Below are positions 4,127-24,715 of a DNA stretch of 35,024 nucleotides, piece by piece. The notes under the pieces were generated by a model. The model did no database searches. It was not told the DNA's origin and saw only the letters and a list, made by a program, of their open reading frames with translations. A program made the position numbers and the translations under genes. Source of the DNA: Nitriliruptoraceae bacterium (GTDB taxonomy: Bacteria; Actinomycetota; Nitriliruptoria; Nitriliruptorales; Nitriliruptoraceae); NCBI GenBank assembly GCA_007133465.1, contig SLMP01000064.1, positions 1-35,024 on the forward strand. Direction: 5' to 3'. How positions within the stretch are numbered: the first letter of the stretch is position 1; the number at the start of each line of letters is the position of its first letter.

Positions 4127-6193
4127 CTAGTAGTGGAATCCGAGTAGGCGGAGGTGGTACAGGAACGGGGCGAACGCCAGCAGGCCGAGCGCGACGCCGG
4201 AGTAGTAGACCCGCCCGGCGGTCGAACCTTCGCCGTCTCGCCAGAGCCGGATGACGACGAAGGCGAGCCCGGCGGTCAGCACGACGCTGACCAGGGGGAG
4301 CCACAACAGCGCCCGGGTGAACGGGCTGACCCGCAGCAGGCCACCCATGTCGATGACGAAGTGTCCGACGAAGCCGATGAGGAAGGCGACGAGGAGGCCA
4401 CCGGCCAGCCCGCCGAGACGTCGTGCCTGGCGCACGTCGGTCGGCGTCCCGCCGTGGCGGCGACGCAGTCGCCCAGCGATGGCGCCGACCGGCCAGCCGA
4501 CCGCCGCGACGAGGGCCACGGCGAGGAAGGCCAACAGCAGCCCGAGGACGAACCCGGTGGTCTCGTACCAGGCCAGCCGGTCCATGGAGAACAGCTGCGG
4601 GCCGGCCACGTGCAGCCCGGCCACCTCACCGGCGTCGTCGGTGTCGAAGACGAGCGTGGACGTGCCGCCCTCCTCGATGAACACCCCGGATCCGCTCGGT
4701 GTCCACCGCGTGTCCGCCAGCAGCCCGACCGGGGCCATGGCGGTGTCCAGGGTTCCGTCGTCGTTGGCGGTGACCTGCAGCCGGATGCCCATCAGGGTGG
4801 AGACCAGCCGCATGAAGGTGAAGCTGTCGTGGCGGTTCCAGCGGTACTGCCCGGCGAAGGCGTCGACGTCGCTGCCCGCTGCGGCCGGCGCGGCGGCCGG
4901 CTGCGCGGGGACCGGGACGAGCTCGTCGAGGGCGTCGTAGATCAGCGTGTGCGTGACCTCCACACCCGCGCCGTGGTTGAACGCGACGAACAACCCGAGA
5001 TCGGCCTCGGGCAGCAGGTAGAGGTGGGCGCTCGCTCCCACCCAGCTGCCGCCGTGCTGCACGCCCCGCCGCTCACCAGCAAGGTGCTCGAAGAAGCCGT
5101 AGCCGATGCCCGCGATGTCGGGGTGCGGCGCGAACTGGGTGCGGTGCATCGCCGCGACCGTGTCGGGCTCCAGGATGCGGGTGCCGTCGTGCTCGCCGCC
5201 GCCGAGGTGGGCGAGCATGAACGAGGCGATGTCCTCGCCGGTGGTCCACAAGCCGCCGGTCGGCAGCGCGTTGACGTGCATGGGCGGGACCGCGCTGGCG
5301 GTGTCGGCCCCTGGGAGGGCCTCGTGCGGGACGACGTCGTGGGCGTCGGGGACCGGGCGCCCGTAGGTGCTGCGGGACATGCCGAGCGGCTCGAGGATGC
5401 CGGCGGTCACGTAGTCCTCGAACGTCTCGCCGCTGAGGTTCTCCACGAGGTGGCCCGCCAGGGCGATGCCGTAGTTGTCGTACTGGTGCGCGATGCCCGG
5501 GGAACGGATCCGCGGCGGTTGGAACCGCGACAGGCTGTCGGCCAGCGGGTCGGCCTCGCCCGGCCCGGGAGCTGCCGACCCGAGGAGGTAGTACTCGCCG
5601 AAACCCGCGGTATGGGTGAGCAGGTGCGCCGCCGTGACGGGCTCACCGAAGGCGTCGGGGACCTCGAACTCCGTCAGGTGATTGTTGACGTCGGCCTGCA
5701 GGTCGAGGGCGCCCTGCTCGACCTGCTGCATGACCGCGGTGGCGGTCAGCAGCTTGCTGACCGAGCCGATGTCGAACCGGGTCCGCCGAGCGTCGACGGG
5801 CGTCTCCCGGTCCAGGTCGGTGTGGCCGTAGCCCTGCGCGTGGGCGATGGCCCCATCGGCCACGACCACGACGACCCCGCCGGGGATGCCGTGCTGCGCC
5901 ATCGCCGCGGCGACGGACGCGTCCATGCCGGCGACGACCGTTTCGATGTCCCCGGACGCCACGGGTCCCCCCGCCGCCAGGATCGGGGCGATCGCCGCGT
6001 CGCGGCCGGCGCCGGCGACCTGCTCGGGAGCACCAGGCGGGACGGTGAAGCCGGCGACAGCGCTCGACGCGAGGAGCACGACCGCGGCCGATGCCCACAC
6101 GCGGCGGTGGGCATGCTGCCGGGTGGTCGGGCGGGATCCGGGTCGCTGGGGAGCCGCCCCGGGAACCTGGTCGCTCAGATCGCGCAGACGCAT
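4127..6193 (-). CDS. Serine beta-lactamase-like hydrolase with membrane C-terminus
   Basis: About 688 residues. The frame is open to 6256, but the ATG at 6193 has a GGAGG site five bases upstream and opens a plausible N-terminus with a membrane anchor (VWASAAVVLLASSAVAGF), so the shorter form is preferred. The class C beta-lactamase/esterase motifs are complete: SVSK at about residues 144-147 (catalytic Ser and Lys), YDN at about 238-240, and HGG at about 380-382. A linker of about 150 residues resembling the DUF3471-type lipocalin tail follows, then four membrane segments at the C-terminus. The active domain should face outside the cell and act on peptides, peptidoglycan or esters; the substrate cannot be told. 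It stands alone, with a gap of about 180 bases to the ABC genes downstream. Confidence 0.88.
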   Translation of the reverse strand: MRLRDLSDQVPGAAPQRPGSRPTTRQHAHRRVWASAAVVLLASSAVAGFTVPPGAPEQVAGAGRDAAIAPILAAGGPVASGDIETVVAGMDASVAAAMAQHGIPGGVVVVVADGAIAHAQGYGHTDLDRETPVDARRTRFDIGSVSKLLTATAVMQQVEQGALDLQADVNNHLTEFEVPDAFGEPVTAAHLLTHTAGFGEYYLLGSAAPGPGEADPLADSLSRFQPPRIRSPGIAHQYDNYGIALAGHLVENLSGETFEDYVTAGILEPLGMSRSTYGRPVPDAHDVVPHEALPGADTASAVPPMHVNALPTGGLWTTGEDIASFMLAHLGGGEHDGTRILEPDTVAAMHRTQFAPHPDIAGIGYGFFEHLAGERRGVQHGGSWVGASAHLYLLPEADLGLFVAFNHGAGVEVTHTLIYDALDELVPVPAQPAAAPAAAGSDVDAFAGQYRWNRHDSFTFMRLVSTLMGIRLQVTANDDGTLDTAMAPVGLLADTRWTPSGSGVFIEEGGTSTLVFDTDDAGEVAGLHVAGPQLFSMDRLAWYETTGFVLGLLLAFLAVALVAAVGWPVGAIAGRLRRRHGGTPTDVRQARRLGGLAGGLLVAFLIGFVGHFVIDMGGLLRVSPFTRALLWLPLVSVVLTAGLAFVVIRLWRDGEGSTAGRVYYSGVALGLLAFAPFLYHLRLLGFHY

Positions 6194-16661: not shown

Positions 16662-18149
16662 ATGAGCGACAACGGCGCAGGCGGTGTCCGCGGGCGCCTC
16701 AGTCATCTGGCCGGTTCGCTGAGCAATCGCGTCCTCGAGGAACTCGACCCGGACGCGGTGGTCGATCGGCTCGACGTCGACGGGTTGATCGCCCGGGTCG
16801 ACGTGAACGGGTTGGTCGCCCGGGTCGACGTCGACGGGTTGGTCGCCCGGGTCGACGTGAACGGGTTGGTCGCCCGGGTCGACGTCGACGGGTTGGTCGC
16901 CCGGGTCGACGTCGACGGGTTGATCGGTCGGGTGGACCTCGACGCGTTGCTGGATCGGGTCGAGGTCGATCGTGTGCTGGCGCGGGCGGACGTCGACGCG
17001 CTCGTCGCTCGGCTCGATGTGGACGGCCTCGTCGCCCGCATCGACGTGGAAGCGCTGCTGGCCCGCGCGGATGCGGACGCCCTGCTGGCCCGGGTGGACG
17101 TGAACGGTCTGCTCGACCGTGTCGACGTGGACCGTCTCCTGCGGCGGGTGGACGTGAACGGTCTGCTCGACCGTGTCGACGTGGACCGTCTCCTGCGGCG
17201 GGTGGATGTGAACGGTCTGCTCGACCGTGTCGACGTCGACCCCCTCCTGGAGCGCGCCGATCTCGACGCGTTGCTCGATCGCGTCGAGGTGCAGCGGTTG
17301 TTCGATCGGATCGACCTGGATCGGGTCGTGGGCCGGTTGGACATCGATGCCGTCGTCGCACGGATCGACCTCGAGCGGGCGATCGAGACGGTCGATCTCG
17401 AGGCGCTGGTTCGGCGGGCGGGGATCCCGGAACTGGTGGCCGAGAGCACCGGTCAGGTCGCGGGATCCGCTCTGGACCTGGGTCGTCGCCAGCTCGTCGG
17501 GCTCGACGTGGGTGTCAGCCGGGTCCTCCAGCGGGTGCTGCGTCGTGACCCCGATGCCCTCCCATCGGGCCCGCCCCAGCTCGTCGCCGACCAGGGTGCG
17601 GCGATCGAGCCGCCGGAGCCGGGGGAGGCCAGGGCCAAGGCACGGGCCGAGGTCAGCGGCTTCTACGCCGGTCCGGTGAGTCGTCTCGTCGCCTTCGCGG
17701 GCGACGTCGCGCTGGCGACGTCGGCGTTCACCCTCATCAGCGCAGCTGCCGCCTGGGTGCTGTCGACCCTTTTCGGGGTCGAGGTGGTCACGATGGACCG
17801 TCGTGCCGCTTCGTGGGCGGCGGGGTTCTTCCTCTGGCTGTTCCTCTACTGGTGGGTGTCGTCCGCCGTCGCCGGTCGCACGCCGATCATGACGCTCGCC
17901 GGCCTGCGGATCGTCGCGCGTGATGGCACGCCACTACGTCCGGGCTTCGCGCTGGCACGGACCGTGCTGCTGCCCGTCAGCCTGCTGTTCTTCGGGCTGG
18001 GGGGCCTCTGGATGGTGGTGGATCGAGAGCGGCGTGGGCTCCACGACCTCGTGGCGCGCTCCACGGTCGTCTACGACTGGGGTGGACGGCCGGCGGAGAT
18101 GCCGACGCCGCTGGCGCGTTGGATCGCCGAGCACGGAGCGGGCACATGA
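16662..18149 (+). CDS. RDD-family membrane protein with 25 nine-residue repeats
   Basis: About 495 residues. Residues 28-252 are 25 uninterrupted nine-residue repeats with consensus [VLI]D[VLI][DN]x[LV][LVI]xR, for example VDVNGLVAR, VDVDGLVAR, VDVDRLLRR. A linker follows (about 253-325), then an RDD domain (about 330-480). The RDD domain begins FYAGPVSRLVAFAGDVALA, has hydrophobic segments TLISAAAAWVLSTLF and AGFFLWLFLYWWVSSAVAG, and shows the typical TLAGLRIVARDGTPLRPGFALAR and RRGLHDLVARSTVV end. The ATG at 16662 is preferred over a GTG at 16644 because of the -10 box between them. The repeat region is acidic/basic amphipathic and soluble, probably cytosolic. The function is unknown. Confidence 0.85.
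   Translation: MSDNGAGGVRGRLSHLAGSLSNRVLEELDPDAVVDRLDVDGLIARVDVNGLVARVDVDGLVARVDVNGLVARVDVDGLVARVDVDGLIGRVDLDALLDRVEVDRVLARADVDALVARLDVDGLVARIDVEALLARADADALLARVDVNGLLDRVDVDRLLRRVDVNGLLDRVDVDRLLRRVDVNGLLDRVDVDPLLERADLDALLDRVEVQRLFDRIDLDRVVGRLDIDAVVARIDLERAIETVDLEALVRRAGIPELVAESTGQVAGSALDLGRRQLVGLDVGVSRVLQRVLRRDPDALPSGPPQLVADQGAAIEPPEPGEARAKARAEVSGFYAGPVSRLVAFAGDVALATSAFTLISAAAAWVLSTLFGVEVVTMDRRAASWAAGFFLWLFLYWWVSSAVAGRTPIMTLAGLRIVARDGTPLRPGFALARTVLLPVSLLFFGLGGLWMVVDRERRGLHDLVARSTVVYDWGGRPAEMPTPLARWIAEHGAGT
16743..17417 (+). repeat. 25 tandem 27-bp repeats in the RDD gene
   Basis: Each 27-bp unit encodes nine residues. Units 3-6 (from 16797) and 14-18 (17094-17228) repeat as nearly identical 54-bp pairs, which shows recent growth by two-unit duplications. 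Outer units are more diverged. Eighteen residues equal five alpha-helical turns, so the 54-bp period may reflect a structural unit. Confidence 0.95.
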
Positions 18150-21132: not shown

Positions 21133-22390
21133 TCAGTCGCCGGGGCGTCGCGAGCCAGGCGGGCAACTCGTCCGTGTGCTCCCCGAGCCCGGGCGGCGGG
21201 TAGCGGTAGGTCGGGGGCTGTCGGAGAGCGTGATCGGGTTGCGGATCGAGGGAACCGCCGCGTCGCCGTCACCCGCCTCGATGACCGGGTGGAGCCCGAC
21301 CGATGCCGCGAACGCCACACCCTCGCGCACGGTGTTGACCGGCCCGCCGGGCAGCCCGTTGGCGCGGAGCAGATCGAACCACTCCGCGGTCGTCCGTGTC
21401 GCGAGCGCCTCGAGCAGCAGCGTCAAGAGGGCTGCACGCTGGGCGGTGCGGTCCTCATTGGTGGCGAACCGCTCGTCCCGCGCGACCCCCAGGAGGCCGA
21501 GCACCTCGCACAGCTCGGCGAACTGCCTGTCGTTGCCCGCGATCACGAGGATCTCCCCGTCGGCCGTCGGCAGCGGCTCGTAGGGGAACAGGCTCGGGTG
21601 GGCGTTGCCCATCCGGAACGGCGTGACGTCGGAGGCGACGACCGCGCTGGTGTGGTTGACCAGCCCGGACAGCGTCGACGACAGCAGGTCGACCTCGATC
21701 CGCTGACCCACGCCGGTCTCGTGCCGGCGGTTGAGGGCGGCGAGTATGCCGACGGTCGCGTGCAGGCCGGCCAGGACGTCGCAGACGGGCATGCCCGCGC
21801 GGTAGGCGGGACCGTCGGGGTCGCCGGTGAGGCTCATCAGCCCGGAGATGCCCTGGACCATCAGGTCGTACCCGGCGAGGCTGGCGGCCTGCTCCGTGGT
21901 CCCGAACCCGGAGATGGACGCGTAGCCGATACCCGGGTTGCCGGCGCGGACCGTGTCGTGGTCGAGGCCGAAGCGCAGCATCCCGCCCGGACGCATGTTC
22001 TCGATCAGGACGTCGGCGCGTGCGGCCAGCTCGTGGGCGAGCGCGAGGTCGTCCTCGTCCGTGAGGGCCAGCACGATCGACCGCTTGTTACGGTTTGATA
22101 CCGAGGTAGTACGTCGAGATGCCGTCCCGGACCGGCGGCATCCAGGTCCGGGTGTCGTCCCCGGACGGGCCCTCGACCTTCACCACCTCCGCACCGAGGT
22201 CGGCGAGCAGCATCGTCGCGTACGGGCCGGCCAGGATGCGCGAGAAGTCCGCGACGAGGATCCCGTCGAGCGGTCCGGCGGGGATGGACCGTTGCGGTCC
22301 GGCGGGGGTGGACCGTTGCGGTCCGGCGGGGGTGGACCGTTGTGGTCCGGCGGGGGTGGACCGTTGTGGTCCGGCGGGAGGAGCAACCAC
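21133..22390 (-). pseudogene. Frameshifted class III (CaiB/BaiF) CoA-transferase
   Basis: Two frames together encode a nearly complete class III CoA-transferase. The first part (22390 to about 22088) has [29 protein letters not shown], the family N-terminus, and stops after YYLGIKP. The second, to 21133, continues DLIENMRPGG-like (LIENMRPGGML), GYASISGFG, AGYDLMVQGISGLMSLTG and ends with NPITLSDSP. One extra A in a run of three near 22090 causes the first shift (GINRNKRS expected). A missing C in a run near 21210 changes the C-terminus (PTYRYPPPGLGEHTDE is read in another frame). The enzyme would move CoA between carboxylic acids. Both lesions are in homopolymers, so a sequencing error is a real alternative to decay. 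Confidence 0.8.
22272..22378 (-). repeat. Four tandem 24-bp repeats at the CoA-transferase N-terminus
   Basis: Units 22272-22295, 22296-22319, 22320-22343 and 22344-22367, plus an 11-base partial unit, encode PAGPQRST octapeptides in front of the first conserved strand. The family has no such extension. Confidence 0.95.
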
Positions 22391-22525: not shown

Positions 22526-24040
22526 TCAGGTGGGACCGCGAGGCGGAGGTCGCCCGCGCAGCACCCTGCCGGTGGGGCTGGTCACGGTCACCTCGGCGGT
22601 GGCTGGATCGAGACCGAGTCGCCAGCGCCCCTCGTGCACCAGTCGGTGATGGAAGATGCAGATGAGGACGCCGTTGTCGATGCTGGTCTCCCCACCGTTG
22701 CTGTAGTACCGGACGTGGTGGATCACCGAGCGAGAGGCGGGGACCGAGCAGCCGGGGAACCGGCAGTGGACGTCGCGGACGATGATCGCGCGCCGCGTCG
22801 GTCCGGGCCAGTTGCGGGTCGCCCGGCCGCTGTGCAGGACCTGCGATGGGCCGCGCGTCAGGACGAAGGCCAGGCAGGCGTCGCAACCGAGCCGGGTGAG
22901 CGCCTCTGGTGAGATGACGACGCCGCCCTCCGTGGTCGCAACGGCGCCTGGGATGCCGGCGAACGCCTCGATCGGCGCGTACACGGTGACGTGCGGGCGG
23001 ACGCCACCGTCCTGCGGAGCATCGCCACCGGACAGTGCGCTGTGCGCCGCGGCGATGAGCCCGTCCGCCAGGCGCTGCTCGGGAGAGCGGCGCCGCTCTG
23101 GTGGGGTGTCGGCCGGGTCCGGCTGTGTGAAGGCGCGGAACATGCGGTCGACGAGTTCGCCGTTGAGCGCGTCGAGGGTCGCGTCGATGTCCCACATGCC
23201 GTCCTTGCGGCGCCGGCTCGTGCAGCGGCGGCGAGCGAACGCGCGGTTCTCGTCACGGCGGAGCGCATCCGCATCGGCCAGGTGCTCCCGGCGCCGGATC
23301 TCCCGGCCGAGGCTCTCGGGCGTCTCACGCTCCGCGACGGCGAGCAGTTCCTCGTCGACCTGTTCGGCCGAGCCGAGCCGACCGGAGCGGCTGGCGCGGG
23401 CGATGGCGGCCGCCTGCTCCTCGCCGATACGGCCCTCGGCGAGGGCGGCCGCGGTCTGCGGCAGCGCTTCGAGGCCGCGGGCGAGTTCGGCCCGTCGGCG
23501 TGCTTCCCGCCCAGAGATGCCCAGGCGGTTGCGCAGGTAGGTCGTGCTGTCGCGCTCACCGCGTTCCGCGGGGGCATCCGAGCGAACAGCGGCGGTCGTC
23601 AGCCGGGCGCGCAGGGCCGCGAGGGCACCGTCGACCAGCTTCAGGCGAGCGAAGCAGCGGTCGATGGCGACGGTCTCCGTCGTGACGACGGGTGCGGCGG
23701 CGAGTGACTGGAGTTCCCGCGCGAGCCGCTCGAGCCGGTCGGCGACCTCATCGGCCTCCTGAGCCGGCGGCGCCTCCGGACGTGGGTCCGCAGGGATGCC
23801 GTTCGGTGGAGTGTCGGCTCTCGGGGCACCGGCCGGCGGGGCACCGGTCGGTGGGGTGTCGGTCGGCGGGGTGTCGGTCGGCGTCGACCGCGGCGAGGGT
23901 TGGTCAGCCGCCGCAGGGGCGTGGAGCAGCATCGGCTGGTCGTAGCCGGCGGCCTCCTCCCGGACGATGCTGCGGTGCACGCGATGACGAACGCGCCACC
24001 CTCGGGGTGCGTCGAGCTCGGCAACGGTTGGTTCAGCCAT
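22526..24040 (-). CDS. DUF222 / HNH endonuclease-domain protein
   Basis: About 504 residues from the ATG at 24040. After a Pro/Thr-rich linker with DTPPT repeats (about residues 50-90) comes the helical DUF222 region (about 95-370; FARLKLVDGALAALRARL, STTYLRNRLGISGREARRRA). The C-terminal HNH domain follows: VRDVHCRFPGCSVPASRSVIHHVRYY, then NGVLICIFHHRLVHEG, with the paired Cys, the HH and the final H...H. Such proteins are abundant in actinobacteria and often occur in several copies; their role is unsettled. The start is preferred because a TACGGT box lies seven bases upstream. The longer frame to 24220 includes a duplicated start region. Confidence 0.88.
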   Translation of the reverse strand: MAEPTVAELDAPRGWRVRHRVHRSIVREEAAGYDQPMLLHAPAAADQPSPRSTPTDTPPTDTPPTGAPPAGAPRADTPPNGIPADPRPEAPPAQEADEVADRLERLARELQSLAAAPVVTTETVAIDRCFARLKLVDGALAALRARLTTAAVRSDAPAERGERDSTTYLRNRLGISGREARRRAELARGLEALPQTAAALAEGRIGEEQAAAIARASRSGRLGSAEQVDEELLAVAERETPESLGREIRRREHLADADALRRDENRAFARRRCTSRRRKDGMWDIDATLDALNGELVDRMFRAFTQPDPADTPPERRRSPEQRLADGLIAAAHSALSGGDAPQDGGVRPHVTVYAPIEAFAGIPGAVATTEGGVVISPEALTRLGCDACLAFVLTRGPSQVLHSGRATRNWPGPTRRAIIVRDVHCRFPGCSVPASRSVIHHVRYYSNGGETSIDNGVLICIFHHRLVHEGRWRLGLDPATAEVTVTSPTGRVLRGRPPPRGPT

Positions 24041-24146
24041 GACCGTCACCGTACGGTCGGGGTGTGACATCGAACGTCTGCCGGGGCAGGCGTGCCGGAC
24101 CTCCCACGCGGGGCGGGTCGACGTCGGCGACGGTTCGTTCCACCAT
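24033..24146 (-). CDS. Short upstream ORF from a duplicated gene start (37 aa)
   Basis: A second leaderless start, ATG at 24146, lies behind its own TAGGGT box. It encodes MVERTVADVDPPR, a near copy of the HNH N-terminus MAEPTVAELDAPR. It then leaves the homologous frame and stops at 24033, overlapping the HNH start. It could act as a leader peptide or be a silent by-product of the duplication. Confidence 0.35.
   Translation of the reverse strand: MVERTVADVDPPRVGGPARLPRQTFDVTPRPYGDGHG
24048..24053 (-). promoter_or_regulatory. -10 box of the HNH gene (leaderless)
   Basis: TACGGT on the minus strand ends seven bases before the ATG at 24040. There is no ribosome site. Confidence 0.55.
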
Positions 24147-24153
24147 GCCTTTG

Positions 24154-24159
24154 ACCCTA
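24154..24159 (-). promoter_or_regulatory. -10 box of the duplicated upstream start
   Basis: TAGGGT on the minus strand, seven bases before the ATG at 24146. It is the counterpart of TACGGT at the HNH gene in the other duplicate. Confidence 0.45.
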
Positions 24160-24220
24160 CGGTCGGGGTGTGACATCCAGCTGCGGTCGCGGCCGCCGTA
24201 GTGAGCATCTCGGAGTCCAC

Positions 24221-24469: not shown

Positions 24470-24715
24470 CGGTCGTGCCCGCCCTGTCGGTGGGCCGGGG
24501 CGGGGACGACCCGGACCGGTGGGCGGAGCGGATCGAGGCCGGCCGGGCCGCGCCGGACCACCTCGCCGCCACCTCGACGCCCGTGCTCGTGCTCGGTGGC
24601 TGGGTGGCTGGGTGGCTGGGCGCGACGCTTGGCGCGACGCTTGGCGCGACGCTTGGCGCGACGCTTGGCGCGACGCCGGACCGACCGGCTGGTCGCGTCA
24701 GGTCAGGTCAGGTCC
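24470..24715 (+). repeat. Repeat-rich gap: 8-, 12- and 5-bp tandem repeats
   Basis: After the DUF2277 stop a GTG overlaps it (24466), and its frame reads about 45 plausible codons (DPDRWAERIEAGRAAPDHLA) before meeting repeats; no known family is recognised. Then come three 8-bp GGTGGCTG units (24595-24618), four and a part 12-bp GGCGCGACGCTT units (24619-24677) and a TCAGG repeat (about 24698-24712). The last overlaps the stop of the convergent permease gene. Confidence 0.75.

Follow-up and report, generated by a model that had tools for sequence, protein, structure and literature searches.

The duplicated start region of a DUF222-HNH gene

The window, meaning the whole stretch of 35,024 nucleotides analysed here, is one entire contig of a 2.77 Mb draft genome of a Nitriliruptoraceae bacterium. 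Its minus strand carries a gene whose predicted product is a DUF222/HNH nuclease-like protein. The DUF222 domain (PF02720) is matched at 105.5 bits against a curated cut-off of 24.4. The C-terminal HNH match lies slightly below its own cut-off (19.9 against 21.4 bits, E 8e-4), and residues C426, C431, H441, H442, N456, C461, H464 and H465 are invariant in seven aligned sequences, in keeping with a C-terminal HNH domain. The HNH frame stays open as far as a GTG at 24220 (22526-24220 in the window), so automatic annotation may call the start too early. A DUF2277 gene lies divergently beside the HNH gene. Their link is not conserved, with a DUF2277 match at only one of the fetched related loci (L105). 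The window also contains a long array of 27-bp units within a 501-aa ORF (16752-17291), and short tandem arrays flank the HNH and DUF2277 genes at 22270-22378 (24 bp) and 24591-24676 (8 and 12 bp). The features of the start region are as follows.

22526 to 24040, minus strand: DUF222-HNH gene, 504 aa, read from the inner, predicted leaderless ATG; HNH/zinc-type residues conserved with six homologues (Pfam, alignment)
23960 to 24070, minus strand: inner tandem unit of about 111 nt with promoter, ATG and the first ~27 HNH codons (gapped alignment)
24071 to 24176, minus strand: outer tandem unit of 106 nt with promoter, ATG and degraded codons (alignment)
24033 to 24146, minus strand: predicted leaderless outer ORF of 37 codons plus TGA, translated as MVERTVADVDPPRVGG...GHG and stop (sequence)
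24033 to 24040, minus strand: ATGGCTGA, in which the HNH start codon overlaps the outer-ORF stop (sequence)
24046 to 24050, minus strand: Shine-Dalgarno-like GGTGA, which stands 5 nt ahead of the inner ATG and could be used on the outer transcript only (sequence)
24048 to 24069, minus strand: inner putative promoter of PafBC/RecA-NDp type, TGTCACACCCCGACCGTACGGT, with the -26 element at 24064-24069 and the -10 TACGGT at 24048-24053 (motif as in PMC8151990)
24154 to 24175, minus strand: outer putative promoter of the same type, TGTCACACCCCGACCGTAGGGT, with the -26 TGTCAC at 24170-24175 and the -10 TAGGGT at 24154-24159 (motif from the same source)

An earlier note had described a 106-bp tandem duplication at this place, which the alignments bear out. 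The two copies (24003-24093 and 24109-24199, minus strand) are spaced by 106 and are 76% identical over 91 nt without gaps. The outer copy reads ATGTCACACCCCGACCG-TAGGGT-CAAAGGC-ATGG and the inner copy ATGTCACACCCCGACCG-TACGGT-GACGGTC-ATGG, so that both have the form ATGTCACACCCCGACCGTA(G or C)GGT, then seven bases, then ATG. The -10 box, the gap, the ATG and the early codons are indeed present twice, as the note had said, with the gap itself identical at just 3 of 7 positions. Identity reaches 22/23 in the promoter block, 30/39 in codons 1-13 and 19/36 in the preceding 36 bases. The difference between the promoter block and the 46 positions downstream (33/46) is modestly significant (p 0.025). 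The note had also asked that the copies resemble each other beyond chance. In a gapped local alignment they score 102, while none of 3000 dinucleotide shuffles exceeds the maximum of 67. The window is rich in tandem arrays, and 50 of 4887 other adjacent segment pairs score at least 102; we take these to be mostly the arrays.

Weak homology to the inner codons, with small gaps, continues across the remainder of the 106-nt interval (an equally good fit arises in 7 of 5000 shuffles and at 15 of 4998 42-mers of the window). Gapped alignment gives unit lengths of about 111 nt for the inner and 106 nt for the outer unit. Because homology fills the rest of the interval, the simplest history is one tandem duplication of the promoter and about 27 codons, followed by shortening of the outer unit to 106 nt. 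The repeat is thus best read as an old local tandem duplication. We rejected an assembly artefact, since copies only 76% alike cannot be a duplicated contig piece. No second genome of the same genus was present among 60 relatives. The 37-codon ORF of the outer copy overlaps the inner start as previously described, running from 24146 to 24033, with its stop overlapping the HNH start in ATGGCTGA. The tail of this ORF does not keep the frame of the duplicated codons, and we saw no relative of the ORF. The GGTGA before the inner ATG is presumably an anti-SD match.

PafBC-type sites at the HNH gene and elsewhere in the genome

The earlier note had recognized a -10 box in each copy and overlooked TGTCACAC, which lies upstream of the -10 and is repeated perfectly. 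The repeat of the -10 stands, yet the box is not a bare one. Each block has the full layout TGTCAC-N10-TAnnnT of a PafBC/RecA-NDp-type promoter, with a TGTCR core, a TAnnnT -10 and 11 nt from TGTCR to TA. In mycobacteria, PMC8151990 gives the motif variants TGTCGG/TGTCAG/TGTCAC-N10-TA-N3-T, and a consensus beginning tTGTCRgtg appears in PMC5656591. PafBC is turned on by single-stranded DNA, and PafB engages the -26 motif together with sigma-A polymerase (PMC11804915). ClgR/ClpR has also been proposed as acting on the PafBC-type motif in mycobacteria (PMC5656591). The proposal of two promoters in series is supported, and both look like the PafBC (DNA-damage) type. The ATG sits 7 nt past the -10 in each copy, and relatives share this layout. 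The proposed leaderless starts likewise gain support, because homologues also place their ATG 6-8 nt past the -10. No LexA box (CGAAC-N4-GTTCG, at most 1 mismatch) was found within 453 nt upstream of the HNH gene.

The strict form of the site, TGTCACAC-N8-TANNNT, occurs six times in the genome against none for the reversed pattern, and two of the six are the repeat itself. The looser form, TGTCR-N11-TANNNT, occurs 20 times against 5 in the control. Eight of the 20 are the repeat pair and sites upstream of recA, uvrA, rmuC, an SbcD-like phosphoesterase gene, a second DUF222 gene and an HNH_3 gene; the other 12 are not tied to repair or HNH genes. The motif hence precedes known regulon genes (recA, uvrA, rmuC and the SbcD-like gene) in the same genome. 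The strict site at the HNH_3 gene (~340 aa, not DUF222) lies 62 nt before a possible start (L008, G000:C140:17621-17642). Two further strict sites stand ahead of unknown short ORFs (L007, G000:C104:334-355, and L009, G000:C165:287-308), and at L007 an ATG follows 6 nt past the -10.

The genome's own recA is preceded by a LexA box and then, closer to the start, by a PafBC-type site. This order is described for mycobacterial recA P2/P1 in PMC5656591. Among relatives, 30 recA loci were fetched and 2 dropped for matches beginning behind an intein. The remaining 28 upstream regions, one with just 71 nt, contain a PafBC-type site in 17 cases and a LexA box in 27. The sixth position of the site is C in 16 of 18 recA sites. 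The genome's own recA (L019, G000:C110, from 8749) contains an intein, and recA matches are split in many relatives too. Elsewhere on the same contig, four exact LexA boxes fall within 116 bp (G000:C110:23028-23143).

The assembly (88.7% complete) yielded no WYL (PafB/PafC) gene. The absence of pafBC probably reflects an assembly gap rather than loss, because WYL genes are present in every other genome searched (60 of 61), pafA is likewise absent, and the contig ends (at 10517) after dop and a Pup-like ORF, the latter read from its translation. Dop is the sole Pup-ligase-family gene in the assembly. In one relative (G007), a few kb separate pafA from PafB and PafC genes that adjoin each other.

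Upstream regions of the DUF222 family

For a view of the family, we hand-picked 88 upstream regions of DUF222 homologues whose alignment started near enough to the N-terminus; other matches were left unused, many of the 88 come from shared genomes, and three have less than 70 nt upstream. The search covered PafBC-type sites with a spacing of 10-12 and LexA boxes with at most 1 mismatch. PafBC-type sites were found in 19 regions and LexA boxes in 50, with both in 7, either in 62 and neither in 26. The last group includes a paralogue on contig C118 of the present genome and three regions with less than 70 nt upstream. Reversed sequences of the same 88 regions gave 1 PafBC-type site and no LexA box, and 54 kb of gene bodies gave 0 PafBC-type and 6 LexA-like sites. 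An in-frame open ATG lies 6-8 nt past the -10 at 7 of 20 sites, compared to 0.7% at random positions. The search pattern left two bases of the site open at positions 6 and 7; they read CA, and each is kept in 18 of 19 DUF222 sites. L025, the best homologue, shows the same promoter-to-ATG arrangement, its TGTCC differing from the pattern by one base. The -10 TAGGGT of the outer copy recurs at another DUF222 site of the same class (L067).

A search of genome contigs with the single protein found no relative. The alignment of seven homologues recovered 80 loci in named genomes, of which 75 were used and 5 dropped for having little upstream sequence. The nearest of these named loci come from Nitriliruptoraceae MAGs, in line with a probable placement in the class Nitriliruptoria. 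The site is present at 11 of 20 actinobacterial loci, some of them shared with the set of 88, against 2 of 55 others, where the reversed sequence also gave 2. One of the sites (L202) belongs to the isolate Phytoactinopolyspora limicola, with the ATG 7 nt past the -10. The DUF222-HNH gene is a member of a family in which links to DNA-damage control elements are widespread.

Doubling within the family is unusual. Among the 19 DUF222 loci with a site, the window gene alone has two. Near copies (at most 6 mismatches, within 500 nt) were absent for the genome's other 18 looser sites, and related loci had no near copies of their PafBC-type sites at up to 4 mismatches.

Probable origin and possible use of the paired promoters

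We consider it likely that a damage-inducible HNH gene acquired two serial leaderless promoters of the PafBC type through an old tandem duplication. The ancestor would have been a DUF222-HNH gene with a single leaderless promoter of this type, RecA-independent and inducible by DNA damage. A local duplication of ~106-111 bp would have taken in the promoter, the start codon and ~27 codons. Since then the two promoters would have diverged hardly at all, whereas the copied codons changed and the outer copy became shorter by a net ~5 nt. Upon DNA damage, PafBC on single-stranded DNA might let housekeeping RNA polymerase fire both promoters. The inner transcript would begin at or beside the HNH ATG and be translated without a leader. 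The outer transcript would begin at the 37-codon ORF. Because the stop of this ORF overlaps the HNH start, HNH protein could still be made from it, either by re-initiation or coupling at ATGGCTGA or from the upstream GGTGA. Overall, damage might induce the HNH nuclease-like protein more strongly or in a more graded way.

The inner promoter could instead work alone, with the outer copy decaying as the leftover of a neutral tandem duplication and playing no present role. The outer codons are frame-shifted and diverged, its -10 differs by one base (TAGGGT), the doubled arrangement recurs at no related locus and the statistic for promoter constraint is modest. We regard this as somewhat unlikely, as the outer promoter matches the inner one at 22 of 23 positions and keeps all consensus positions, and TAGGGT is also present at the DUF222 site of L067. 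A decidedly less probable reading treats the 37-codon ORF as a regulatory leader peptide whose translation, coupled through ATGGCTGA, sets the amount of HNH protein. It is consistent with the predicted leaderless ATG, with the stop overlapping the following start and with differences in codons 1-13 distributed 2, 2 and 5 over the codon positions. However, these differences are too few to demonstrate coding constraint, and the tail of the ORF is frame-shifted relative to the duplicated codons.

The repeated block might also serve a regulator other than PafBC, as PafB and PafC were not found in this assembly. This is very unlikely given that spacing and bases fit the PafBC motif, that the motif stands before recA both here and in relatives, and that one relative has adjacent PafB and PafC genes. 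We give little credence to the view that the outer copy is no duplicated promoter and instead remains from a second, neighboring DUF222 gene lost by deletion. In its favor, genomes contain several DUF222 copies, and a start with 13 codons that match in frame is present in the outer copy. Yet homology spans the whole 106-nt interval and stops at the start of the inner promoter, as tandem duplication predicts, and no homologue in the alignment of seven has this N-terminus. A tandem duplication that produced two serial PafBC-type promoters remains our preferred reading.

Mycobacterial systems come closest to this arrangement. PafBC-dependent (RecA-NDp, P1) promoters share TGTCAC-N10-TAnnnT and the kind of genes served (recA, uvrA and other repair genes). 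Here, however, a tandem pair 106 bp apart serves one gene, each ATG lies 7 nt past its -10, and the pair is known from sequence alone. The dual recA promoter likewise sets a pair of damage-responsive promoters one behind the other ahead of a single gene. In that case their kinds differ (LexA-controlled P2 and PafBC-controlled P1), whereas here both look PafBC-type and no LexA box (at most 1 mismatch) occurs in the 453 nt upstream.

We take the 13E12 proteins to be members of DUF222. The 13E12 HNH proteins belong to the LexA regulon of Mycobacterium tuberculosis and have been proposed to play a role similar to mismatch repair (PMC4181829), and five putative HNH endonucleases are listed among RecA-dependent genes (PMC8151990). 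According to both sources, the M. tuberculosis genes are also HNH endonuclease-domain genes under DNA-damage control. Control there is by LexA, while the gene studied here, from the class Nitriliruptoria, appears to be under control of PafBC type. The doubling is what is unusual; the promoter type and the damage control of HNH genes are already known. Neither tandem PafBC promoters nor DUF222 genes controlled by PafBC came up in our search of open-licence papers. The widespread, poorly understood and nuclease-like DUF222-HNH proteins appear wired to the DNA-damage response via LexA, PafBC or both. Such wiring is apparent in Nitriliruptoria and other Actinomycetota, with one member having two serial PafBC-type promoters. 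A near-identical pair 106 bp apart offers natural material for how such promoters add up, and turns a bare repeat into a testable statement on damage control of DUF222-HNH.

A broader proposal is that damage-induced DUF222-HNH genes of this lineage acquired PafBC elements in tandem on repeated occasions, with spacings of 106 bp here and 64 bp at C118, and that these were selected to raise or grade HNH induction, with a short leaderless ORF handing ribosomes to the HNH start. We hold this as an unlikely, speculative extension. Two cases in one genome, noticed after the fact, are no more than suggestive. At C118, the third DUF222 gene of the genome (L002, G000:C118:5416-5437 and 5480-5501, minus strand) is associated with two identical 25-nt copies of ATGTCGCACCCCCCTGGCAACATCG, 64 bp apart, within a repeat unit identical at 47 of 64 positions. 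The copies retain TGTCGC, and their function is less clear because a poor CAACAT stands in place of the -10. Searched with at most 3 mismatches, the element has just two occurrences in this genome, and two of the 60 relatives contain it once. A dispersed repeat was therefore rejected, and the C118 element is local.
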